Positions 30,934 through 61,302 of a stretch of 63,352 nt of DNA are shown in pieces. The DNA is from Pseudomonadota bacterium (GTDB lineage Bacteria; Pseudomonadota; Gammaproteobacteria; Xanthomonadales; Xanthomonadaceae): assembly GCA_018241125.1 (NCBI GenBank), contig JAFEEL010000021.1, forward strand, positions 1 to 63,352. The letters are read 5' to 3'. Made by a program: the position numbers and the translations under genes. Positions within the stretch are counted from its first letter, which is position 1, and each line of letters opens with the position of its first letter. The notes beneath the pieces were generated by a model, which made no database searches, was not told where the DNA came from, and saw nothing but the letters and a program-made list of their open reading frames with translations.

Positions 30934-31718
30934 GCGCCGCCGACCTGTGCGACTTGCGCGCCGGTGCGCCCGAAACGACGCTCGCGTGCCGCAAAGTCCA
31001 CCAGTGCCCGATCCAGTTCGGCCACGTCCAGATCCGGCCAGAGCGTGTCGGTGAACCATAGTTCGGTGTAGGCCATCTGCCAGAGCAGGAAGTTGCTGAT
31101 GCGCCGATCGCCGCCAGTGCGGATGAACAAATCCGGTGCCGGCTGCTCGGCCAGTTCGACGTGCTGCGCGAACAGCGCCTCGTCGATCGTCGATGGATCG
31201 AGTTGCCCGCGCACCGCCGCCTGCGCCAGCGTCCGCGCCGCTTGCACGATGTCCCACCGACCGCCGTAGCTGATCGCCACGTTCAGATGCAAGGCGGTAT
31301 TGCCAGCGGTGCGTCGCTCGGCGCTGTCCATGCGCTTGCCGATCGCCGCCGACAGGTGCGCCCGCTCGCCGATGAAACGCAGGCGTACGCCGTGCTCGTG
31401 CAGTTCGTCCACTTCGCGGTCGAGCGAGCGCATGAACAAGTTCATCAGCGCGCCGACTTCCTCCTGCGGGCGCTTCCAGTTCTCGCTGGAAAAAGCGAAC
31501 AAGGTCAGCGCGCGGATGCCGCGTTCGAGGCAAAAGCGCACGCACAGGCGCACGGTCTTGGCGCCGGCACGGTGGCCGAAGGTACGCGGCCGGCCACGGC
31601 GCTGCGCCCAGCGGCCGTTGCCGTCCATCACGATGGCGATGTGCTGCGGTACGCGCCCGCCGCCCGCGGCGGTCGGTTCCGGGGCGGGCGGCGGATGGCT
31701 GGCTGGTGGCGCGGGCAT
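30930..31718 (-). CDS. uppS: Undecaprenyl-diphosphate synthase
   Basis: A cis-prenyltransferase (about 262 residues) that makes the lipid carrier for peptidoglycan and O-antigen. The pyrophosphate-binding motif is HIAIVMDGNGRWAQRRG; later marks are LTLFAFSSENWKRPQ, AISYGGRWDIVQA and DLFIRTGGDRRISNFLLWQ, and the C-terminal RFGRTGAQVA tail follows. I use ATG 31718; a TTG at 31745 would add nine residues and sits directly after the frr stop. The first 24 residues are a Pro/Ala-rich leader without family counterpart. Confidence 0.93.
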   Translation of the reverse strand: MPAPPASHPPPAPEPTAAGGGRVPQHIAIVMDGNGRWAQRRGRPRTFGHRAGAKTVRLCVRFCLERGIRALTLFAFSSENWKRPQEEVGALMNLFMRSLDREVDELHEHGVRLRFIGERAHLSAAIGKRMDSAERRTAGNTALHLNVAISYGGRWDIVQAARTLAQAAVRGQLDPSTIDEALFAQHVELAEQPAPDLFIRTGGDRRISNFLLWQMAYTELWFTDTLWPDLDVAELDRALVDFAARERRFGRTGAQVAQVGGA

Positions 31719-31747: not shown

Positions 31748-32305
31748 TCAGATCGCCAGCAGTTCGAGTTCCTTGGCCTTGACCACCTCGTCGACGTCCT
31801 TGATCGCCTTGTCGGTGATCTTCTGGATGTCATCCCCGGCGCGCTTTTCCTCGTCCTCGGTGATCGACTTGTCCTTGAGCAGTTCCTTGACGTGATGCAT
31901 GGCATCGCGGCGCACGTTGCGGATCGCCACCTTGGTGTTTTCGCCCTCGTGGGCGACGTGCTTGCCCAGTTCGCGGCGGCGTTCTTCGGTCAGCGCCGGC
32001 AGGTTGATGCGGATCACCGTGCCGGCGGTGTTCGGGGTCAGGCCCAGATCGGAGGCGAGGATGGCCTTCTCGACCGCGCCGACCATGCCTTTTTCCCACG
32101 GGGTGATCTGGATCGTGCGGGCGTCGGTGATGGCGACGCTGGCCACCTGCGCCAGCGGGGTGTCGTTGCCGTAGTAGCTGACTTTCAGGTGATCGACCAG
32201 GGCCGCGCTGGCGCGCCCGGTGCGCACCTTGGTCAGGTCGTGGCGCAGCACCTCCACGCACTTGTGCATGCGTGCGGTCGCGTCGGTCTTGATCTGGCTG
32301 AGCAT
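31748..32305 (-). CDS. frr: Ribosome recycling factor
   Basis: A 185-residue tRNA-shaped factor that splits the post-termination ribosome with EF-G. Hallmarks are the N-terminal helix with RMHKCVEVLRHDLTKVRTGRA, the hinge with YYGNDTPLAQVASVA, TIQITPWEKGMVGAVEKAIL, and INLPALTEERRREL. The length equals the family norm. Normally it follows pyrH directly; here about 9 kb of accessory genes lie between them, so a local promoter (32333-32341) is relevant. Confidence 0.97.
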   Translation of the reverse strand: MLSQIKTDATARMHKCVEVLRHDLTKVRTGRASAALVDHLKVSYYGNDTPLAQVASVAITDARTIQITPWEKGMVGAVEKAILASDLGLTPNTAGTVIRINLPALTEERRRELGKHVAHEGENTKVAIRNVRRDAMHHVKELLKDKSITEDEEKRAGDDIQKITDKAIKDVDEVVKAKELELLAI

Positions 32306-32383: not shown

Positions 32384-35296
32384 TCAGAACGTCTGCCGGT
32401 AGGTGAAGTACCAGAACCGGCCCGGCACGTCGTAGTCCGGGATGAACGACGTCGAGCCACTGTAAGACCATGCATGCGGTGGCTGCCGATCGAATGCGTT
32501 GCGCACGCCCAGGGACAGCACGGCGTTCCAGGGCGCCTTCCAGCGCCCCTCCAGATCGATGTAGGTGACCGAGCCCAATCGGTTGCGCGGATCGGGGAAG
32601 GGCGTGCCCGAACCAAATCCGGAGGACATGTGATTGGGATCGGAGCAGTGCGATTGCACCAGTGAAGGGTCGTGCAAGCGATCACCGAGGTTCGCGATGT
32701 AGTTGCAGTATTCAAATATCGGTGAAAAATAGCGGCCCGTGACCGTGGCGCCCCAGCGGCCGCGTTGCCAGTCGAGCGTGGCAACCGAGCGCATGCGCCA
32801 CACCACGCCGTAAACCGGATCGTTGCTGCCCACCACGTTGCCCTCGGCGAACGAGCCGTCGGCCAGCGTCGATCCGCTGGCGGGTTTGCCGATCTCGCCG
32901 TAATAACCGACCCACGCGGTTTCCCAGCGCAGATTGAAATCGCCCCAATCGGTTTGCCGCTTCCAGGCCAGCGCAAAATCCACGCCGTCGGTTTGCAGCC
33001 CGCCGAACAGGTTGCGCTCCGAGGTCGTCACGTATTGCAGCGTGCCGTCCGGGTAGCGGGCGATGCGCGCGCAGGCGTTCGGGTCGCCGTGCTGATAGCA
33101 CGCGTCGATGTACCACTGTCCGCCCGGATCGGCGATCGCATTGCGCAGCTTGATCCGGTACCAGTCCACGCTCACATCCAGTCCGGGCAGCCAGCGCGGG
33201 CTGAACAATACGCCCGCGGTCAGGGTGCTGGTGGTCTCGGGTTTGAGGGTGGCGTTGCTGGTGGAGATCGTGTCGACTTCGATCGGCGGTGGCACGTCGG
33301 CCGGCACCCCGGCTGCCGCGCAACGCGCCGCGACATCGGCTGGCGGCTGGTAGTCGTCCTGCACGGCGCAGTCGTCGAAGTAGCCGTTGCCGTAGTGCTG
33401 ATAGACCGTCCCGCCGAACGCCTCCAGCACGCTGGGCGCGCGGAAGCCCTGGGTATGGGTCGCGCGCACCAGCAGGTCGGTGAACGGTCGCCACTTGAGC
33501 GCCACGCGCGTATTGGCGGTGCCGCCGAACAGCGAGTAATGCGACCAGCGCGTGGCCACGTTCAGATCGAGCTGGCGCGCCAGCGGGCGGTTGGCCAGCA
33601 AGGGTGCGTCGAACTCCACGAACGCCTCGTTCACCGCGTAGGAACCCCGGGTCGGCTCGTAGCTGACGCCGGTGCCGTTGGCGCGATCGGTGGCCACCAG
33701 CAGGCCGGGATCGTCGCGGCCGTGCTCGATGCGCCGTTCGATGCCGATGGCCATGCCCAGCGGCCCGGCGGGCAATGTGAAAGGCTGGCCGTCGGCGTGC
33801 AGGGCGAACAAGTCCGAGCGCGTGCTGGTGCGGTTGTGCACGTTCACGTCCACGTAATCGAGCATGGCCGGCGTGAGCCGCTCCGGGCCGCCGAACAGGT
33901 CGATCGGCACGCAGCCGGCGATCACGTGGCCGGGACTGCCGCAGCGCGGTGTGCCACTGGCGTCGATGTACGACGGGCCGACCGCCAGCCGCAGCTTTTC
34001 GTTGTCGGCATAAGGCCCGCTGAACTCGGTTTGCGCCGCGCGCGTGCTGATCGCGTCGGCCGTCCAGTTCCAGTCATGCCCGGCGAGCGTGAAACTGCCG
34101 TCGAGGCCCACGTGCAGCCGCGAAGTATTCACCGCCTGTTCGAAGCGACGCACATCGGCGCCGACAAAGCGCATGTGCACGGCGACGTCCGCACCGAACG
34201 GGTTGTAGATGCTGTCCGGGGAGACGGTGTAAGCCTGCTCGCCAGTGAACTGGGCGGTGGAGAAGTGGATGGTCGGCGGCGCCAGTTGTTGCGAGGACGT
34301 GCGGCGATCGACGATGGCATCGGCGACCAAGGCCAGCGATGGCGTCAGTTCACGGCGAAACTGCGCGAACCCGGCGCGGCGCTCCTGCGGGGTTTGCAGG
34401 TAGCTGTAGGCCTGATAGTTGAAGCTGCTGTCGGTCGCTGAATGAAAACGGCGGAAATCGTCCGGCGACGTGCCCGTCCGCCCCGGGATCAGCACGACAT
34501 TGCCCAGCCCGTCCACGGTGAACACGCCGTACGGGGTGGTCGAGGAGCCGGTCGCCCCCAGCGGCAAACCCAGTGCCGGTACCGCTGAGATGGTTCGCGC
34601 CGAGGCCATGATCGGATCGTCCTTGCCCGCCTCCAGCCCGATCGACCAGCGCGTGGCTTCGCCGTCGTGCCCGAAGGCGAAGTCGATGTTGCTGCGCGTG
34701 CCGTCGCCATGCTCGTTGACGCCGGCGTACACGCCCAGTTGCGGGTGATCGACCTTGGGGCGGGTGACGATGTTGATCACGCCGCCGATGGCGTCCGAAC
34801 CGTACACCGCCGAGGCGCCGTCCTTGAGTACGTCGATGTGATCGACCATCGACAACGGGATCGCCGACAGGTCCACCGCGCCGTCGAGTGCCGATACCCA
34901 GCGTTGACCATTGACCAGCACCAGCGTGCGGTTCGCGCCGAGGCTGCGCAGATTGACGCGCAGTTGACCGGGGGCTTCGCTACCGTTGTTGATGTTGCGA
35001 TTCAGGGTTGGCCCATTGGCGACGATCAGCGATTGCGCCACGTCGGCGACGCTGGTCAGGCCGGTGTGCGCGATCTGCTCGCGGGTGATGGTCTGCACCG
35101 GTTGCGCGGTGGCGGTGTCCACGCCGCGCACGTGGGTGCCGGTGACGATCACCGGCGCGAGGTTCTTGGCTTTGGCGGCAGCCGCCGACTCCGGCGCGGC
35201 TGCCGGTGGATCGTCGCCGGCCCATGCCAGTTGCGCGCAGGTCACACACAACACGATGCCGGGAACCCAAGGTTGCAAGGGTGCGAAGCGGTTCAT
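32384..35296 (-). CDS. TonB-dependent outer-membrane receptor
   Basis: A 970-residue receptor. Residues 1 to about 27 are a signal peptide (VLCVTCAQLAWA). The plug domain begins with the VIVTGTHVRGVD segment and carries LRSLGANRTLVLVNGQRW and IDVLKDGASAVYGSDAIGGVIN. The long beta-barrel region ends in the aromatic-rich terminus WYFTYRQTF. It belongs to the large iron-complex/Oar-like receptors expanded in Xanthomonadales; the ligand is unknown. ATG 35296 is chosen because TAGGGAGGAG lies at ideal spacing; an in-frame start at 35356 overlaps the kinase gene. It follows the kinase by 40 bases on the same strand, so it may be part of that regulatory block. Confidence 0.88.
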   Translation of the reverse strand: MNRFAPLQPWVPGIVLCVTCAQLAWAGDDPPAAAPESAAAAKAKNLAPVIVTGTHVRGVDTATAQPVQTITREQIAHTGLTSVADVAQSLIVANGPTLNRNINNGSEAPGQLRVNLRSLGANRTLVLVNGQRWVSALDGAVDLSAIPLSMVDHIDVLKDGASAVYGSDAIGGVINIVTRPKVDHPQLGVYAGVNEHGDGTRSNIDFAFGHDGEATRWSIGLEAGKDDPIMASARTISAVPALGLPLGATGSSTTPYGVFTVDGLGNVVLIPGRTGTSPDDFRRFHSATDSSFNYQAYSYLQTPQERRAGFAQFRRELTPSLALVADAIVDRRTSSQQLAPPTIHFSTAQFTGEQAYTVSPDSIYNPFGADVAVHMRFVGADVRRFEQAVNTSRLHVGLDGSFTLAGHDWNWTADAISTRAAQTEFSGPYADNEKLRLAVGPSYIDASGTPRCGSPGHVIAGCVPIDLFGGPERLTPAMLDYVDVNVHNRTSTRSDLFALHADGQPFTLPAGPLGMAIGIERRIEHGRDDPGLLVATDRANGTGVSYEPTRGSYAVNEAFVEFDAPLLANRPLARQLDLNVATRWSHYSLFGGTANTRVALKWRPFTDLLVRATHTQGFRAPSVLEAFGGTVYQHYGNGYFDDCAVQDDYQPPADVAARCAAAGVPADVPPPIEVDTISTSNATLKPETTSTLTAGVLFSPRWLPGLDVSVDWYRIKLRNAIADPGGQWYIDACYQHGDPNACARIARYPDGTLQYVTTSERNLFGGLQTDGVDFALAWKRQTDWGDFNLRWETAWVGYYGEIGKPASGSTLADGSFAEGNVVGSNDPVYGVVWRMRSVATLDWQRGRWGATVTGRYFSPIFEYCNYIANLGDRLHDPSLVQSHCSDPNHMSSGFGSGTPFPDPRNRLGSVTYIDLEGRWKAPWNAVLSLGVRNAFDRQPPHAWSYSGSTSFIPDYDVPGRFWYFTYRQTF

Positions 35297-35336
35297 GGTG
35301 CTCCTCCCTACGTTGCGCGGGTGTTGTCGTTCGTGT

Positions 35337-38300
35337 TCAGCGCTGGGTACGCTCAAGCGTGATGGCCAGCACGGCGTGATGCACGTCCGGCTCGGGTGGG
35401 CCGACCAAGGTCAGCGCCAGCAGCGGACGTTCCGGATGCGGATTGGGCAAACGCAGCAGGCCCACGATCCCCAGTTGCTGGTAAGCGTTGAGATCGCGGG
35501 CATCGTTGCCCCAGGCGACGAACTGCATGCGCGAATCGCCCTGGGTATTGCGCCAGTAGCCTGCGGGCCGCTCACCGAACCCGAGCGCGATCGTCGCTTG
35601 GCTGCCGTCGGCGTAGTCCAGGCGGATCTGGCCGGGTGGCTTGCTGGCATCGATGCCGAAGTAGTTGGGAACGCCGATCAACAGGTCGACCGCGGCGATT
35701 GGGTCGGACGCGGCATGGGTCGGCCCGTTGCCGCCGATGGCAAAGCGGGCGTTCAGTGACCGCGCCAGATCGATGCCGCCGCGCACGTCGAAATCGATTC
35801 CCAGATAGCGCTGCCGGCCCTGCGGCAGCCAGGCGAAGTCACCGCCGCCGTGGAAGGCGGTATCCAGCGGCGCACGCAGGCCGAACGAATACGCGGCCGT
35901 CAGGTCGAGTTGATCGGTCGTCAGCCCTGAGTCGCGCGGCGGGATGCCGCCGCCGGGCAGCACTCGGACGCTGACCGGGAGCGATGGCGCCGCCGTGTTC
36001 AGCGGCCCGGGATCGCGCGCCCGCATCGCAGCGCGCTCTGCGGCGGTCGGTGGGGGCGTGGCGGTGGAGCCAGACGCGGTCGATGACAGTTCACGAAGAT
36101 CGACTTCGCGGGCGATTTCCGCAACCGGGCGCGAGTCGGGCGTGAGGTCCCAAACCAGCAAACGACCGCGCAGGCTGCGGGCCAGCAGGCGGTTGCCGTC
36201 GGGCGAAAATGCCAGCGTCGCCACCACGTCCGGGCGCGGCAGGGCGACGCGCAGGCTCGTCATGCGGATGTTTTGGTGAAGATCGAACAACACCGCGCCG
36301 TCGCGCAGTCCGCGCGCGTACCAGCGGCCGTCGCTGCTCACCGCGCCGGCATACATGTTGGTGTCGTCGATGAGTTCTGGCAGCGCGTGGAAAGAGCCGT
36401 CGGCTGCGACGATCTGGGTCGGGTCTGAATTGCTGATGATCGCCACGTCGGTGGAGCGCGGCAGTGGCACGAGGGCATGCACGTCGGTGACCGGCAGCGG
36501 TGTGGTGTGCTCTCCGCCGGTTGCGGGGAAGCGGCGCAACTCAAACATCTGTTTGCCGTTTTCCAGATGATGGAAGGCAATGACGGTCGCTTGGCGATCG
36601 TCGAACACGACGGTAGCCAACGTTCCTTTGCGTGAGTCCTCGCCGTAGCCGCGGGGGCGGTACGATCCGAGCGGCCCGGCGACGGCCTTCAGGGTCTTGC
36701 CATCGCGAACGCTGGCATCGCTGCGGTTCCACGCGGCTAAGCGACTGCCGTCCGGACTGAACGCCAGACCGTGGAGCATGCCCGGCAATGGCGTCGGGCC
36801 GGCCAGCAGTGCGCCATCGGCGAGGCGATAGATCACAGCAACCTCGCTGGTCAAATGGTCGCCCGTGGCCAACGATTGCGGCCAGGCGACGACGACCCGC
36901 AGGCCATCCGGACTCACGTCGGCATACGTCGGGGTGTTCGGCAGGGCAATCGGCGAGAACAGCGGGCGACCGCTGGTCGCATCGAAGGCAAACAGCGTCG
37001 GGCCGGCGAGCACGACCACGCGGCGACCGTCGGGGGTGAGTTCGGCAAAGCTGGGCGGCTGTGGCAGTTCGATGCGGGCGCCTCGCGCTCGCTCGGTGCG
37101 CGCGTCCACGACCCGCACGCCGCCGCCTTCGACCTCCGCCAGCCAGCGCCCGTCGAAGTGCACCGTGCCCGGTGCCATCGGCGCGGCGTGCCCGCTCTTG
37201 AGTGCCGGTGGGGGTGTCCGTTCCAGGCGCAGGTGCTGCACGTTCACGCTGGCCAGCAGGCCTTGCGTGGGTGCCCACGCGAAGGCCTGCGCCGACAGCG
37301 GGCTGCGCGCGTTGACGAAAGCGGTCAGGGGAAGCGCATCGCTGCGATCATTTACATTTTCGGTCGGAGCGACCTGCCAGAGCGCTTCGTTGTCGGTGTT
37401 GCCGGCAACCAACACGGTGCGGTGCGCGCGATCGACCTCCACCCGTTGCGGCGACGGCGCGCCACTGAGCGACCCATTGCCGGCGAACGGTGGTGCCAGC
37501 AGGCGACCTTCGGGCCACGACCACAGATAGACGCCGCCGCCGTCGGCCGCCGCAGCGAGCCATCCGTCGTCGCCGCTGAATGCCAAGTATCGGATCGGGA
37601 GGCTCGGCGCTGGCGCGGGGCGGCTGACCGTCAAGTTTCGCAAGTCCACCACCACGATTGCTCCGGCGCTGTCGCCCAACGCCAGCCACTGCGAATTGCC
37701 GCTATAGCGCCATGCGGCGATCGCGCCGAAGTCGCCAAGGTCGACCGTCGCGCGGGCTTTCAGGGTGTGTGCGTCCACCAGCATCACCGCGTGCTCGCGG
37801 GTGTCCTGCGCGAACACGCTTCCGTCCGGGGCCAGCAGCCGCGACGGTGTGCCCTTCCACGGGGGCGGTGCGGCCAGCGCCCCTTGCGGACTCCAAGGCT
37901 CGGCGGCCCACAGCTGCACGCGGCCGTCCTTGTCGGTCAGCAATGCGAAGCGACCGTCCTGCCCGTAGGTGACGTCGTCGAGCTGCGCGGCTTGCGGCGG
38001 GTCGCGCCATGCACCGCGCGCCGCATCCAGACGGCGCATCACCGATGCCGCCGGCAGCGGTGCGTCGCTGGTGAACGCCATCTGGGTCATGAGCACGGTG
38101 CGGTTGTCGGCCAGAAACTGCAGCGACTGCTGCGCAAACACGCGATCGTCCGGGCCGCCGCTGCCGTGCGGCAGGGCCCAGGACTGGTGGCCGCTGGCGA
38201 CGTCGTAGCCGCGCACGCCGGACTGCTCGGTGCTCAGGGCCAGACGCGTGCCGTCCGGACTGAACGCGATCGCGGCGGCCAGTGGCGGCACCGGCCACGC

Positions 38301-39665
38301 ATCGATCAGGCGTGGGTTGTTGTTTTCGAGGATGCCCAGCCGCTTGCGTGCACCCTCGAGGCGCTGCGGATCACTCCGCTGTTCCATCTCGCGTATGTTC
38401 GCCAGCAGCAGCGGTGCCGCGCGCCAGCCGTCGGGGGACTCCATGTAGCGTAACGCCGCGTCGTCGCGCGCGTTCCACAGATTGCGGCTGGCGGTGGCGG
38501 CGTTGTTGCGTGCGTTGCGCCATTGCATGCTGGTGGTCACCAGCCCGGCGGCCAGTGCGACGAACGCCAGTGCTGCGGTGGCGGCCAATTTCGGCTCGCG
38601 CCGCGCCCAGCGCGCCAGTCGGGTGACCGCGTTCAACGGCCGGGCGTGCACCGGGCGGCCTTCCACGAAGCGCGACAGGTCGTCGGCCAGTGCGCGGGCG
38701 CTGGGGTAACGGCGACCGGCTTCGCGCACGAGGCAATGGCCGATGATCGCCGCCAGATCGCGATGCAGCATCGGCACGAAATCGCGCGGATCGGGTGGAT
38801 TGCCGGATGCGACCAGTCGCAAGGTGGCCTCGGGGGTGGCGCCCAGGAAGGGCGCCCGCCCGGTGACCAGCTCGAACAAGATCGCCCCCAGACCCCAGAT
38901 ATCGGTTGCCGGAGTGACTTTTTGTGCCCGTGCGATGGCCTGCTCGGGGGCCATGTAGCTGGGCGTTCCGGACACTTCGTCCAAGGTGGCCGAGCGCCCG
39001 TGTTCGAGCCGCCGCGCCAGACCGAAGTCGGCCACGTACGGGGTACCGGCCTCGTCGAGCAGCACATTGGCGGGCTTGAGGTCCAGGTGCAAGACGCCCA
39101 GCTTGTGCGCGTAGTCGACCGCCTCGGCGACGGTGCGCAGTACCTGCGCGGCGCGCAGGGCGGGCATGCGGCCATCGCGCTGGAGCACGCTGGCCAGCGA
39201 GCCGCCGATGACCAGGCGCATCGAGAAATAGTGCATTTCGTCGGCACTGCCGACTTCGTAGATCGCCACGATGTTGGGGTGTTGCATGCGCGCGGCGCTC
39301 TGCGCTTCGTTGCGAAAGCGCTCGATGAACTCGCGCGATGCCCACGGCCCGGCGGCCAACAGCTTGACCGCCACCTCGCGATCCAGGCTGGTCTGGTGCG
39401 CTCGGTAGACCACCCCCATGCCACCCTTGCCGATCATCTCGCGCAACTCGTAGTCGCCGAAATGGCATTGCGCTGGATCGGACAGGTCGAGTTCGAGCGA
39501 TTCGGACGGGAGGATGGCCAGATGGCCGCCTTCCATCACGGCCGACTCGGCATTCAGGCTGCCGAACAACAGATCCGCCAATGCCGCGGCGGGCGCGCGC
39601 AGGCTCTCCAGCGGCTGCGAGGGGCCGCTGTCGATGCGCAGGGTGTCGTCCGATTTGGCGTTCAT
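35337..39665 (-). CDS. Giant Ser/Thr protein kinase with WD40-like sensor region
   Basis: A 1442-residue membrane kinase. The Hanks-type domain covers about residues 70-345: glycine loop IGKGGMGVVYRAH at 79, lysine K101 in EVAVKLLAAG, catalytic loop HLDLKPANVLLD near 195 (Leu replaces the usual Arg of HRD), DFG in VADFGLARRL and APE in YMAPEQA. A transmembrane helix (AATAALAFVALAAGLV) lies near 355-375. About 800 extracytoplasmic residues follow, with many FSPDGTRLAL-type blades (WD40/YVTN propeller). The last 170 residues contain WLPQGRQRYLGIDFDVRGGI and FGERPAGYW, resembling a carbohydrate-binding-like domain seen in planctomycete kinases. The start overlaps the stop of the degenerate sigma gene by 4 bases. 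The signal is unknown. Confidence 0.88.
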   Translation of the reverse strand: MNAKSDDTLRIDSGPSQPLESLRAPAAALADLLFGSLNAESAVMEGGHLAILPSESLELDLSDPAQCHFGDYELREMIGKGGMGVVYRAHQTSLDREVAVKLLAAGPWASREFIERFRNEAQSAARMQHPNIVAIYEVGSADEMHYFSMRLVIGGSLASVLQRDGRMPALRAAQVLRTVAEAVDYAHKLGVLHLDLKPANVLLDEAGTPYVADFGLARRLEHGRSATLDEVSGTPSYMAPEQAIARAQKVTPATDIWGLGAILFELVTGRAPFLGATPEATLRLVASGNPPDPRDFVPMLHRDLAAIIGHCLVREAGRRYPSARALADDLSRFVEGRPVHARPLNAVTRLARWARREPKLAATAALAFVALAAGLVTTSMQWRNARNNAATASRNLWNARDDAALRYMESPDGWRAAPLLLANIREMEQRSDPQRLEGARKRLGILENNNPRLIDAWPVPPLAAAIAFSPDGTRLALSTEQSGVRGYDVASGHQSWALPHGSGGPDDRVFAQQSLQFLADNRTVLMTQMAFTSDAPLPAASVMRRLDAARGAWRDPPQAAQLDDVTYGQDGRFALLTDKDGRVQLWAAEPWSPQGALAAPPPWKGTPSRLLAPDGSVFAQDTREHAVMLVDAHTLKARATVDLGDFGAIAAWRYSGNSQWLALGDSAGAIVVVDLRNLTVSRPAPAPSLPIRYLAFSGDDGWLAAAADGGGVYLWSWPEGRLLAPPFAGNGSLSGAPSPQRVEVDRAHRTVLVAGNTDNEALWQVAPTENVNDRSDALPLTAFVNARSPLSAQAFAWAPTQGLLASVNVQHLRLERTPPPALKSGHAAPMAPGTVHFDGRWLAEVEGGGVRVVDARTERARGARIELPQPPSFAELTPDGRRVVVLAGPTLFAFDATSGRPLFSPIALPNTPTYADVSPDGLRVVVAWPQSLATGDHLTSEVAVIYRLADGALLAGPTPLPGMLHGLAFSPDGSRLAAWNRSDASVRDGKTLKAVAGPLGSYRPRGYGEDSRKGTLATVVFDDRQATVIAFHHLENGKQMFELRRFPATGGEHTTPLPVTDVHALVPLPRSTDVAIISNSDPTQIVAADGSFHALPELIDDTNMYAGAVSSDGRWYARGLRDGAVLFDLHQNIRMTSLRVALPRPDVVATLAFSPDGNRLLARSLRGRLLVWDLTPDSRPVAEIAREVDLRELSSTASGSTATPPPTAAERAAMRARDPGPLNTAAPSLPVSVRVLPGGGIPPRDSGLTTDQLDLTAAYSFGLRAPLDTAFHGGGDFAWLPQGRQRYLGIDFDVRGGIDLARSLNARFAIGGNGPTHAASDPIAAVDLLIGVPNYFGIDASKPPGQIRLDYADGSQATIALGFGERPAGYWRNTQGDSRMQFVAWGNDARDLNAYQQLGIVGLLRLPNPHPERPLLALTLVGPPEPDVHHAVLAITLERTQR

Positions 39666-40375
39666 GGCCGATCCCGCAGCGCCGCGTACAGGATGGTTTG
39701 CTCGCGTGCCAAATCTTGCGTGTCGGCCACGGTATCGGCCAGTTCGCCCCCGGCGATCTCGCGCAGCCGCTGGCGCAGGCGCTTGAGGGCGACGACCAGC
39801 GCGATCGGCTGCATGTGCAGGCGCTGGCCGATGTTTTCCAGCACGCCCGGCGCCGGGTCGCGGGCGATGAACTCGCACAGCGCCTGATACATCGGCAGAT
39901 GTCCGGTTTGCGCCGCCTCGGTGTGCAGGCGCTGCAGGGCATGGGCGAGCAACTCCACTGCGAAGGCGCGCTGGTATGCCTGCTCGGGCGACGCCAGTTG
40001 CGCCACCTCCGCCTGATAGCGGGGTTCCAGATCGCTCGGCGGCGTCCAGTGGTCGCCGTCGCCGTCGCCGGCGGCGAGCTTCCCCCGCCAGTCCTGCCCG
40101 AGGAGCCGATTCAGGCGCGACCACAGGTAGGCGCGCAACGACTGCCCCTGCGCCGGGCGGGCGGCTGCCGGCTGCGCCAGTTCGCGCAGGAACAACCGGC
40201 ACAAATCGATCGCGATCGCCGGCGCGTGCCCGCAACGGCGGAAACAGGCGTAGATCGGGAAGCTGTAAGCGCGCGCAAGGGTCAGCAGCGGATCTTCGGC
40301 GCCCGCCGTCTGGCCGGTCGTGCCGTGCAGGACGATCGACCACCGCGTGTGCGCAAAACTGCCCGCTGATTGCAT
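39662..40375 (-). CDS. Degenerate ECF sigma-factor-like protein
   Basis: A 237-residue protein distantly similar to the ECF factor encoded next to it. Both begin with a T(R/Q)WS(I/L)V motif, continue with a region-2-like ARAYSFPIYACFRRCGHAP, and end with a region-4-like IGQRLHMQPIALVVALKRLRQRLREI. The core-binding and -10 recognition stretch EDLTQAFFAEF of the neighbour is replaced by IDLCRLFLREL, so sigma activity is doubtful. It is translationally coupled to the kinase (ATGA). It may be a regulator or adaptor of the kinase, or a decaying duplicate. No homologue with known function is recognised. Confidence 0.6.
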   Translation of the reverse strand: MQSAGSFAHTRWSIVLHGTTGQTAGAEDPLLTLARAYSFPIYACFRRCGHAPAIAIDLCRLFLRELAQPAAARPAQGQSLRAYLWSRLNRLLGQDWRGKLAAGDGDGDHWTPPSDLEPRYQAEVAQLASPEQAYQRAFAVELLAHALQRLHTEAAQTGHLPMYQALCEFIARDPAPGVLENIGQRLHMQPIALVVALKRLRQRLREIAGGELADTVADTQDLAREQTILYAALRDRP

Positions 40376-40464
40376 GTGACGCCCCCGTTTCCGGCCGTTC
40401 CCCGTTCTACCAGCCTGATACAGGAATCGGCGGCCTCGATGACGGCGCCGTCGCTGCGGTTACG

Positions 40465-41172
40465 TTACTCCATTACGCCGGCCAGCGCAGCGCGCAGATC
40501 GCGCAGCTCCGCGTCCAGATCCGCACGTGCGTGGGTGGTGTGGGCCAACTGCGCCAGAACGTGCTCGCGCAGGCGACGGCGCATGCGGTGCACGGTTGCC
40601 GCCAAGGTGTTGGGCCGCACGTTCATCTCGCGGGCCAGCACTGCGTAGTCGGCCTCGGCGGGCGGTTCGATCAGGAACTCCCGCAGCCTCGAGAACACGT
40701 CGAGCTTACCGGCGGCCTGGGCTTCGGCGCGCAGCGCACGCAGGGCCGCATCGATCACCGTCAGCGCCCAGCGGCGTTCGAAGACACGATCGGGCGAGTC
40801 GCGTTCTGCGGCCCGCAGGCCGTCGTCGGTTCCCGGAGCTTCCAGCGAGGTCATGTGCGCCGCGCCGCCGCGCTTGATGGCTCTGGCCGCTTGTGTGGAG
40901 TTGATCAGAAAATGCTTGAGCGATGTCAGCAGGTAGGTGCGAAAGCGGCGGCGGCCGGGTTCGGCGCCTGCGTGCAAGGCGGTCGCCACGAACTCGGCGA
41001 AAAACGCTTGCGTCAGATCCTCGGCATCCTCGACGCCGGCGTGCGCGCGGATATAGGCCAGCACCGGGGGGCGATAGGTGCGACACAGATCGTCCAGCGC
41101 CGCGCGCGCATCGTGTTCGCCGCTGCCGGCGCGGCGCACCAGACTCCATTGCGTGGACGCGAAGCGTGTCAT
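40465..41172 (-). CDS. ECF-type RNA polymerase sigma factor
   Basis: A 235-residue sigma-70 family factor of the type common in Planctomycetes, Acidobacteria and myxobacteria. The opening FASTQWSLVRRAGSGEHDAR, then LCRTYRPPVLAYIRAHAGVEDAEDLTQAFFAEF (given here as two adjoining parts: LCRTYRPPVLAYIRAH and VEDAEDLTQAFFAEF), is region 2. Region 4 has YAVLAREMNVRPNTLAATVHRMRRRLREHV. No anti-sigma gene is adjacent; instead the next genes downstream are the degenerate sigma and the Ser/Thr kinase, as in kinase-controlled ECF groups. It starts 75 bases after the pyrH stop. Confidence 0.85.
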   Translation of the reverse strand: MTRFASTQWSLVRRAGSGEHDARAALDDLCRTYRPPVLAYIRAHAGVEDAEDLTQAFFAEFVATALHAGAEPGRRRFRTYLLTSLKHFLINSTQAARAIKRGGAAHMTSLEAPGTDDGLRAAERDSPDRVFERRWALTVIDAALRALRAEAQAAGKLDVFSRLREFLIEPPAEADYAVLAREMNVRPNTLAATVHRMRRRLREHVLAQLAHTTHARADLDAELRDLRAALAGVME

Positions 41173-41247: not shown

Positions 41248-41985
41248 TCAACCGCGATTGACCAGCGTTCCGATCGCCTCGCCGTGCAGGATGCGCGCCA
41301 GATTGCCGGCGCGGGTCATGTCGTAGATGCGCAGCGGCAGGTCGTGGTCGCGGCACAGGGCGATGGCGGCGGTGTCCATCACCTGCAGGTTGTTGGCGAT
41401 CACCTGCTCGTAGCCCAGCCGGTCGTAGCGCACCGCGTCGGCGAACTTTTTCGGGTCCTTGTCGTACACGCCATCGACCTTGGTGGCCTTGAGCAGCAGG
41501 TCGGCGCCGACTTCCACCGCCCGCAGCGCGGCGGCCGAATCGGTGGTGAAGAACGGGTTGCCGGTGCCGGCGGCGAAGATCACGATGCGGCCTTTTTCCA
41601 GATGGCGGATGGCGCGGCGGCGGATGAAGTCCTCGCACACCTCGTTGATCTTCAACGCGCTCATCACCCGCACCTTGGCGCCGAGTTTTTCCAGCGCGTC
41701 CTGCATCGCTAGCGCGTTCATCACCGTGGCCAGCATGCCCATGTGGTCGCCGGTCACCCGATCCATGCCGCCGGCAGCCAGGCCCGCGCCACGGAAGATG
41801 TTGCCGCCGCCGATCACCAGTCCGATCTCGATGCCGGCCTGCTGCGCCTCGATGATTTCCCGCGCCAGCCGACCCAGCACCTCCGGGTCGATGCCGTAAT
41901 CCTCGCGGCCCATCAGGGCCTCGCCGGAGAGCTTGAGCAGGATGCGGCGAAAATGCGGCTTGAGCACGGCGACGGTCGCGGTCAT
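41248..41985 (-). CDS. pyrH: UMP kinase
   Basis: A 245-residue hexameric amino-acid-kinase-fold enzyme that phosphorylates UMP. Motifs are [13 protein letters not shown] at the N-terminus, [49 protein letters not shown] and [21 protein letters not shown] 41985 has a CGAGGA ribosome-binding site at good spacing, and the in-frame start at 42006 has none. It is followed downstream by the accessory ECF/kinase block instead of frr. Confidence 0.96.
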
Positions 41986-42061
41986 GCAAATCCTCGGGGC
42001 AGGCAAACGGGCGAATTCTAGCCGTTTGCACCAGCCCCGTGTGATCGCCGTGGCATTTCGA

Positions 42062-57938: not shown

Positions 57939-58085
57939 GCATCGCCTCCCCTGCGGGTAAGGAAGCTTAGCCGATGCGCAGTTGCTCTGGTGCGCGCGCA
58001 GGCCACCGACGCCCAGCGTGCCGGCGCAGGCGTGCGCATCTTGCTACCATGCGCGCCCTGCCTGCGAACCGCCAACCGCACCGCC

Positions 58086-59214
58086 ATGATCGAGACCAAC
58101 CCGATCCGTTTCCGCATCGCCGACCTTCGAGCCCGACTCGCGTCGCTCCGGGGGTATCTTTGACTTCGACGTCAAGGTCGAACGTCTGGAAGAAGTAAGC
58201 CGGGAACTCGAAGACCCCAGCATCTGGAACACGCCCGACAAGGCGCAGGCGCTGGGCAAGGAACGCGCCGCGCTGGATAAAGTGGTTGGCGGTGTCCGCG
58301 CCATCACCGACGGGCTGGACGGTGCCGCCGAACTGCTGGAGCTGGCCGAGGCCGAGGCCGACGACGACACCGCGCAGGCGGTGGCGGCGGATGTCGAAGT
58401 GCAGGCAAAGCACGTCGAGCAGCTCGAGTTCCAGCGCATGTTCGCGGGCAAGATGGACTCGGCCAATGCCTTCGTGGACATCCAGGCCGGGGCCGGCGGC
58501 ACCGAAGCGCAGGACTGGGCGGAGATGCTGCTGCGCATGTACCTGCGCTGGTGCGAGGCCAAGGGCTGGAAGACCGAACTGCTGGAAGCCAGTGCCGGCG
58601 ACGTGGCGGGCCTGAAGTCGGCCAGTTTCGCGGTGCAGGGCGATTACGCCTACGGCTGGCTGAAGACCGAGATCGGCGTGCACCGACTGGTGCGCAAGTC
58701 GCCGTTCGATTCCGACAACCGCCGTCACACCAGCTTCACCTCGGTGTTCGTCGCGCCGGAAGTCGATGACGACATCGACATCGAGATCAATCCCGCCGAC
58801 CTCAAGACCGACGTCTATCGTTCGTCGGGCGCCGGCGGCCAGCACGTCAACAAGACCGAATCGGCGGTGCGCATCACCCATGTTCCCAGTGGCATCGTGG
58901 TCGCCTGCCAGACCCAGCGCAGCCAGCACGCCAATCGTGACCACGCGATGAAGATGCTCAAGGCCAAGCTGTACGAGATGGAAGTGCAAAAGCGCAACGC
59001 CGAGAAAGACAAACTGGAAGCCACCAAGTCCGACATCGGCTGGGGCAGCCAGATCCGCAACTACGTGCTTGACCAGTCGCGCATCAAGGATCTGCGCACC
59101 GGCATCGAGCGCTCGGATACGCAAAAGGTGCTCGACGGCGATCTGGACGAGTTCATCGAGGCCAGCCTGAAGGCGGGTCTGGAAGCGGGGGCCAAGCGCA
59201 GCGATGCGGTGTGA
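58086..59214 (+). CDS. prfB: Peptide chain release factor 2 (programmed +1 frameshift)
   Basis: RF2 recognises UGA and UAA. The gene is read in two frames: codons 1-25 from ATG 58086 end at TGA 58161-58163, and the main frame continues from GAC 58162 to 59214, giving 375 residues. The site has the classical autoregulatory layout, CGGGGGTATCTTTGAC, with an internal Shine-Dalgarno-like run before CTT TGA C. The anticodon-like tripeptide is in [12 protein letters not shown], and the catalytic motif is [12 protein letters not shown]. Join positions are 58086..58160 and 58162..59214. Confidence 0.96.
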
Positions 59215-59216
59215 GC

Positions 59217-59735
59217 CGGGAGCCGGGAGCCGGGAGCCGGGAGCCGGGAGCCGGGAGCCGGGAGCAGGGAGCAGGGAGCAGGGAGCAGGGAGCGGTCAGT
59301 AAAGCCCCTCTCCCATCGGGAGAGGGGTTGGGGTGAGGGGCGGATGCCGTCGTGCAGACTGATTTTCCGCATGTTGCTCGCCCCTCATCCGGCGCTGCGC
59401 GCCACCTTCTCCCGGAGGGAGCAGGGAGCAGGAAGCAGGGAGAAGGAAGCAGGGAGCAGGAAGCAGGGAGCAGGAAGCAGGGAGCAGGAAGCAGGGAGCA
59501 GGAAGCAAAGCCCCTCTCCCATCGGGAGAGGGGTTGGGGTGAGGGGCGGATGCCGTCGTGCAGACTGATTTTCCGCTTGTTGCTCGCCCCTCATCCGGCG
59601 CTGCGCACCACCTTCTCCCGGAGGGAGAAGGAAGCCGGAAGCAGGGAGCAGGGAGCATCGAGCAGGAAGCAGGGAGCAGGGAGCATCGAGCAGGAAGCAG
59701 GGAGCAGGGAGCATTGAGCAGGGAGCATCCAATCA
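59217..59735. repeat. Heptamer arrays and two 117-base REP-like copies between prfB and lysS
   Basis: Seven-base GGGAGCC then GGGAGCA units (59217-59293) are followed by a 117-base element at 59304-59420, further heptamers (GGAGCAG, GAAGCAG) to 59508, a second copy of the element at 59510-59626, and a last heptamer run to 59735. The 117-base element opens with CCCCTCTCCC ATC GGGAGAGGGG, a perfect 10-bp stem, and ends CTTCTCCCGGAGGGA; the two copies are nearly identical. No gene is seen in 59215-59793. Confidence 0.92.
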
Positions 59736-59793
59736 CAGTGCGTTCGCGATTACGCAGACGTGACGAACACGAAACATCATCGACAACCACGCC

Positions 59794-61302
<1,509 letters not shown>

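Follow-up and report, generated by a model that had tools for sequence, protein, structure and literature searches.

We analysed a window of 63,352 nt (the whole stretch of DNA, contig JAFEEL010000021.1) from a relative of Lysobacter, in which four minus-strand genes separate pyrH from frr. They encode an extracytoplasmic function (ECF)-type sigma factor, a degenerate sigma paralogue, a membrane Ser/Thr kinase and a TonB-dependent receptor; the upstream ECF-like sigma gene product and its degenerate paralogue are referred to here as σA and σB. As judged by sequence comparison, a single-pass Hanks kinase with a propeller, σA and σB recur as a module; in some of the kinase lineages the gene that follows encodes a TonB receptor, from a single receptor family. 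The features of the locus, from pyrH to frr, are as follows.

41248..42006, minus strand: pyrH, the upstream flank, 75 bp from σA (TIGR02075 match)
40465..41172, minus strand: σA, ECF-type sigma factor, 235 aa (TIGR02937, 40.3 bits; region 2.2 alignment)
39662..40375, minus strand: σB, degenerate sigma paralogue, 237 aa (σA paralogy; region 2.2 contacts lost, region 4 conserved)
35337..39665, minus strand: membrane Ser/Thr (Hanks-type) kinase, 1442 aa (PF00069, 167.6 bits)
38814..39452, minus strand: kinase catalytic domain, residues 72-284 (Pfam; HLDLKPAN catalytic loop and DFG)
38532..38588, minus strand: single predicted transmembrane helix, kinase residues 360-378 (hydropathy scan)
35337..38504, minus strand: presumed extracytoplasmic kinase part, WD40-like propeller repeats and C-terminal domain (Pfam, PDB match)
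35297..35336, minus strand: 40-bp kinase-receptor gap with a ribosome-site-like sequence and no sigma-70 promoter match
32384..35296, minus strand: TonB-dependent receptor, 970 aa, signal-peptide-like N-terminus, plug and barrel (PF07715, PF00593)
31748..32305, minus strand: frr, the downstream flank, 78 bp from the receptor (TIGR00496 match)

These coordinates bear out the layout proposed in an earlier, sequence-only reading of this DNA, which had placed four same-strand genes between pyrH and frr, with the TonB receptor 40 bases after the kinase; its description of the products as an ECF factor, a sigma-like protein and a membrane kinase with a propeller also holds. The ECF factor, σA, matches the ECF superfamily model TIGR02937 just below its cut-off (40.3 versus 42.9 bits), the sigma-like protein, σB, is a clear paralogue of σA (31% identity, E 5.8e-17), and the kinase combines PF00069, one hydrophobic segment and WD40-like repeats. 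Pfam or NCBIfam cut-offs were passed by pyrH, frr, the kinase domain, and the TonB plug and barrel. Within the block, σA and σB are separated by 89 bp, the σB stop overlaps the kinase start by 4 bp, and a ribosome-site-like GGGAGGAGC precedes the receptor ATG at 35296. Between positions 31600 and 43200, 0 σ70-type promoters were found against 1.1 expected, and 5 terminators against 6.6 expected. The G+C content of the block is not distinct from that of its surroundings in the window.

The kinase carries VAVK, HLDLKPAN and DFG motifs, the catalytic loop reading HLD in place of HRD in 19 of the 22 kinases compared. Beyond the transmembrane helix lie 1055 residues, consisting of WD40-like repeats and then a C-terminal domain of about 245 aa, for which no Pfam name was found. 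Two Pfam propeller families were detected in all 31 of 31 homologues, below the curated cut-off in the window kinase, and PF00400 in 28 of the 31. The best PDB match of the outer part is PkwA (137 bits), and the PkwA-type WD40 kinases resemble the window kinase in joining a Hanks kinase to a WD40 propeller; PkwA is not known to be linked to a sigma factor.

Recurrence of the module was assessed in 100 genomes of relatives, 19 of which (own genome included) have a σA match, and among named genomes in the best 80 of 397 matches, representing 79 loci, Lysobacterales first, then Verrucomicrobia and Acidobacteria. Of the 40 large-propeller kinases annotated in this best-80-of-397 set, 39 adjoin σA and 32 of those 39 also σB, while the lone kinase without an adjoining σA is the second of two tandem kinases in locus L081. 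There (L081:11347-20375), one σA-σB pair precedes two tandem large-propeller kinases from different kinase clades. The window's own genome holds another σA-σB-kinase triplet built in the same way (C21), a shorter triplet with another sensor and a shortened σB (C8), and single σA-kinase pairs at C4 and C61. Since σA-σB-kinase modules recur in Lysobacterales, the four-gene block is, on this comparative basis, not a chance neighbourhood. Downstream of the C21 triplet (G000:C21:18869-24672, L009), where the window has its TonB receptor, lie genes for two small proteins and for two outer-membrane proteins that look like barrels (one barrel tested).

One result that would have spoken against the sequence-only reading, a receptor not accompanying the kinase in relatives, is not what the comparison shows. 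Sorting 43 kinases (the window, L046 and the C21 locus added) gave 15 with a receptor next, 22 with none, among which we counted L067 and L109 with only 1.0-1.4 kb downstream, and 6 with less than 1 kb of downstream sequence; of the 37 modules whose downstream DNA reaches 1 kb or more, 15 thus have the TonB receptor gene directly after the kinase gene, 7 of them with a 4-bp overlap between the two. Carriers include Rhodanobacter sp. B05 (L069), a Luteimonas metagenome-assembled genome and Pseudoxanthomonas daejeonensis, strain DSM 17801 of which has the same four-gene order as the window. In a receptor tree that also contained 21 unlinked rows, from 18 of the best matches, 14 of the 15 linked receptors fall into one clade (99% support in the Shimodaira-Hasegawa-like approximate likelihood ratio test, SH-aLRT) with one unlinked member; the fifteenth (L119) sits on a long branch and its placement is unsure. 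Distances between kinase domains correlate with those between receptors (r 0.66, 0 of 2000 permutations), those of the kinase outer part more weakly (r 0.47, 0 of 2000 permutations), and part of this correlation is shared ancestry.

One 19-row kinase clade lacks any receptor (17 without, 2 unreadable), in a kinase tree that predates the reassignment of L065 to the receptor carriers. Among five modules sampled from this clade, a Pfam outer-membrane barrel exceeded the cut-off in two and was weak in two, and from the fifth a single small unnamed protein was all that was scanned. Because this receptor-free clade comes with outer-membrane barrels in sampled modules, at least two classes of output seem to exist for the module. 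At L099:16577-19514 the linked TonB receptor is split across two reading frames. A different family of the order has, at L171:3809-10157, a TonB receptor divergent from a Ser/Thr kinase and a true TIGR02999 ECF factor, forming a separate, second kinase-ECF-receptor neighbourhood.

The two sigma proteins differ sharply in region 2.2. σA aligns weakly, yet across region 2.2, with the ECF factor SigE, and in the window it retains the polymerase-binding DAED and Q of that region. In an alignment of 85 σA and 44 σB rows, position 51 is acidic in 83/85 σA versus 3/44 σB, position 52 is D in 85/85 σA versus D or E in 32/44 σB, and position 55 is Q in 85/85 σA versus 4/44 σB (24 Arg). The σA rows had been found with patterns including part of the region 2.2 motif, and the conservation of this motif in σA is therefore biased, the σB rows having been found by adjacency; D52 and Q55 were invariant also in 14 σA rows from whole-protein searches. 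σA retains a KRG(G) motif following region 2 (K in 70, R in 71 and G in 73 of 74), which σB does not. A smaller version of the alignment (74 σA and 35 σB rows) had dropped 24 lines without T[RQH]WS, 20 of which (11 σA, 9 σB) were restored in the larger one. The 100% values at T7 and S10 and the invariance of TRWS in the smaller set stem from this filter, and restoring the 20 rows altered no conclusion.

For the window σB, no Pfam or NCBIfam match was obtained at the limits used; Pfam naming of 35 σB rows gave a single row touching Sigma70_r2 (E 0.091), and no PDB sequence relatives were found at E 0.01. Region 4 of σB keeps many residues, many of them invariant in the 9 unfiltered rows. All four genes are intact in three genomes (dN/dS 0.23-0.60), with higher ratios for σB (0.29-0.60) than for σA (0.23-0.35), and by this measure σB is under purifying selection, weaker than that on σA. 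Taken as a protein family, σB is conserved and is probably a polymerase-blind partner, a point passed over in the sequence-only reading, which described it just as sigma-like. Two candidate phosphosites are common to both sigmas, a linker S/T126-P (S or T in 69/85 σA and 37/44 σB) and an N-terminal T/S-x-W-S/T with an invariant W.

That kinases control ECF factors is established in the ECF43 group, namely for EcfP/PknT in Vibrio and EcfK/PknS in Xanthomonas (passages of PMC8999054, PMC8103513, PMC13147305). There, the DAED of region 2.2 is replaced by uncharged residues and a conserved phospho-threonine is present. Like the ECF43 systems, the block places an ECF sigma beside a transmembrane Ser/Thr kinase without an anti-sigma gene; it differs from them in the kept DAED, a poor TIGR02999 match, the extra σB, the TonB receptor next and the propeller part. 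TIGR02999, the model that we take to stand for ECF43, matched 1 of 14 σA rows (E 0.0018). The window σA has the adjacent Ser/Thr kinase and lacks the other ECF43 traits, DAED being kept and a conserved phospho-threonine absent: the nearest region 2.2 threonine (position 54) is T in 61/85 and A in 20/85 σA rows, and A in the two nearest orthologues. On these grounds a conserved region 2.2 phospho-threonine in σA was rejected, as was membership of σA in ECF43, the single TIGR02999 match also counting here. Because DAED is kept and no conserved phospho-threonine lies there, σA is not an ECF43 copy; being outside ECF43 by motif and by model, its probable place is therefore among those kinase-linked groups in which DAED is retained, an assignment made from descriptions of the groups. 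Such groups, ECF59, ECF61, ECF62, ECF217 and ECF283, were predicted by synteny, and the mechanism of the DAED-keeping groups is described as uncharacterised (a passage of PMC8999054). Likened by description, they share with the block a kinase neighbour and, outside ECF43, the DAED motif or a comparable acidic one; neither σB nor a TonB receptor is mentioned in the passages of PMC8999054 dealing with them.

The FecI-FecR-FecA system likewise unites an ECF sigma with a TonB receptor within one operon; unlike it, the block has no FecR and no STN domain, and a kinase instead. FecR together with an STN-bearing receptor is the textbook switch for TonB receptors via a dedicated sigma. No FecR was found in the block, the sole FecR match of the genome assembly lying at C66, where a sigma factor, FecR and an STN-bearing TonB receptor follow in a row (STN 39.8 bits, serving as positive control), and no STN domain was detected in 14 linked receptors at E up to 1, the split receptor of L099 left out. 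The absence of FecR and STN, together with the textbook FecI-FecR-STN-TonB locus elsewhere, indicates that the block represents a different wiring from FecIR. Two known arrangements bear on σB. The sigma-like domain of PhyR is a case of sigma mimicry and SigO-RsoA a two-subunit sigma with σ2 and σ4 split between two proteins (both in passages of PMC8103513). σB may resemble PhyR as a sigma-like protein with degenerate polymerase contacts and is unlike it in not being fused to another recognised domain; σA and σB resemble SigO-RsoA as two sigma-like proteins encoded together, but each spans both regions and it is region 2.2 of σB that decays. Among the literature titles and abstract openings searched, no paper about a kinase-ECF-TonB receptor operon was found. 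The general idea of kinase-run ECF control is already known; no paper on its coupling to a TonB receptor came up in this search. The sequence-only reading had proposed a distinct type of surface signalling replacing the FecR-type anti-sigma; the missing FecR and STN and the separate FecIR locus uphold this part of it, while kinase control of ECF factors as such has precedents in EcfP/PknT and EcfK/PknS, and 22 of 37 modules lack the receptor.

Upstream regions of σA were searched for shared words. TTGTGGCA, a word chosen after the data had been seen, occurs in 11 of 57 such regions, at a distance of 33-44 bp from a reference position that precedes T-x-W-S by eight residues; 100 shuffles gave a mean of 0.27 and a maximum of 2. 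In the word search itself, counts were also reached by shuffles (for 8-mers, TTTGTGGC 11, shuffle maxima 8-14), and because of this the TTTGTGGCA enrichment has to be read as picked after the fact, its support coming from the genome scan. In seven genomes picked for having the motif, 10 of 20 TTTGTGGCANNNTS sites lie directly before a σA gene, and the reversed control pattern gave 7 hits. The TTGTGGCA/TTTGTGGCANNNTS motif may be an autoregulatory σA promoter, for which it is a candidate. TTGTGGCA was seen shortly before σA in L066, L071, L075, L078, L081, L082, L084, L087 and L095 and was rare otherwise in the seven genomes scanned; two other motif sites, in two genomes (L180, L188), precede a TPR/glycosyltransferase-41 type gene behind prfA, the L188 gene being judged by its start.

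We propose, with a probability of roughly 0.45, that the block forms one operon, a kinase-run sigma switch with the uptake receptor as its output. The propeller part would reside in the periplasm and read a periplasmic or outer-membrane cue, upon which the kinase would phosphorylate σA and/or σB; σA, thereby freed or activated, would transcribe its own operon and so yield more receptor. σB would most likely be a regulatory subunit occupying FecR's slot, a sigma mimic that either sequesters σA or tethers it to the kinase. Conserved and probably polymerase-blind, σB is the most natural candidate for keeping σA inactive. A more specific version, doubtful at this stage, makes σB a pseudo-sigma in place of an anti-sigma, which holds σA or presents it to the kinase until phosphorylation by the propeller-sensor kinase releases σA and turns the TonB receptor on; if true, this would define a class of surface signalling that has neither FecR nor STN and is switched by a sigma mimic. 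What Gram-negative bacteria import is decided by their TonB receptors. A Lysobacterales module of receptor, kinase, intact sigma and degenerate sigma would provide a second route to switching these receptors on, as well as a clear case for asking how kinase-linked, DAED-keeping ECF factors are held off.

Several observations weigh against the proposed switch. No receptor stands next to the kinase in 22 of the 37 modules, and the receptor is therefore one output class and not the definition of the module; moreover, one receptor of the linked clade (G070, L159) lies away from any such kinase. Kinase and receptor trees are incompletely congruent and, as phylogenies, show reshuffling. The receptors of L069 and L095 are 58-60% identical to that of the window and the kinase outer parts only 24-27%, which argues against a tight pairing of receptor and ectodomain. 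With DAED retained in σA and the threonine of its region 2.2 variable, the EcfP mechanism cannot, to judge from these residues, simply be carried over to σA. Finally, the TTTGTGGCA motif is absent near the σA gene of the window.

Some of these points also bear on other explanations. It is unlikely that σB is simply an additional sigma factor, or a duplicate that has diverged under slightly relaxed constraint, without any part in regulation and with the kinase controlling σA alone: the higher dN/dS of σB in the three genomes and its absence from 7 of 39 modules would fit, but σB is kept in 15/15 receptor modules and 15/22 others, many of its region 4 residues are invariant in the 9 unfiltered rows, and in the window its stop overlaps the kinase start. 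That the TonB receptor is itself the sensor, the loaded receptor touching the kinase outer part as FecA touches FecR, would explain why one receptor clade is linked to the module; the lack of STN in the 14 linked receptors, the divergence of the outer parts beside similar receptors, and the many modules with the same kinase type and no adjacent receptor make this quite improbable.

There is also a small chance that σA activity is constitutive, with the kinase directed at other targets and the operon no more than a loose co-localisation. Consistent with this, DAED is kept in σA, and CATAAT, which resembles a housekeeping -10 box, was found upstream of σA in 15 of 57 regions, shuffles giving a mean of 1.6 and a maximum of 7. 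Against it, σA-type genes stand beside a kinase in many loci, although not in all, of lineages ranging from Lysobacterales to Verrucomicrobia; an adjacent kinase in the absence of an anti-sigma gene is given as the mark of kinase-controlled ECF groups (a passage of PMC8999054).

The location of the block was also compared. pyrH lies upstream of σA, within about 1.6 kb, in 13 of the 79 loci, and frr was found downstream in 6 of these 13; with this recurrence, and with other σA modules elsewhere, the block as a one-off insertion was rejected. Between pyrH and frr, L086 and L137 carry σA alone, L082 carries σA and σB without a kinase, and in L083 the σA frame is interrupted. The sequence-only reading had described the two genes as adjacent in most gammaproteobacteria, which holds with reservations: among the 87 of 100 relatives, all within the order, that have both on one contig, the gap is below 300 bp in 53 and wider in the others (0.6-1.6 kb in 27, 3.6-9.1 kb in 3, far apart in 4). 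A 9-kb module between pyrH and frr occurs only in the window genome and G003 among these 87. In G001, 83 kb separate the two genes, a stretch that contains the module and phage-like genes; the latter, judged by eye, lie between pyrH and the module (L157, L158). Twelve sampled gaps of 1.0-3.6 kb contained a CDF-like cation-efflux gene in nine cases (L143, L144, L145, L147, L148, L150, L151, L153, L154) and a YebC-like gene in one, with two left unresolved by gene calls; the CDF-like calls were mostly made from the gene start, one CDF and the YebC being identified further. The pyrH-frr gap is a recurrent, not exclusive, home of the module and looks like a permissive insertion site in Lysobacterales. 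Elsewhere in the window, positions 58001-60000 show an unusually high AT skew (0.24).

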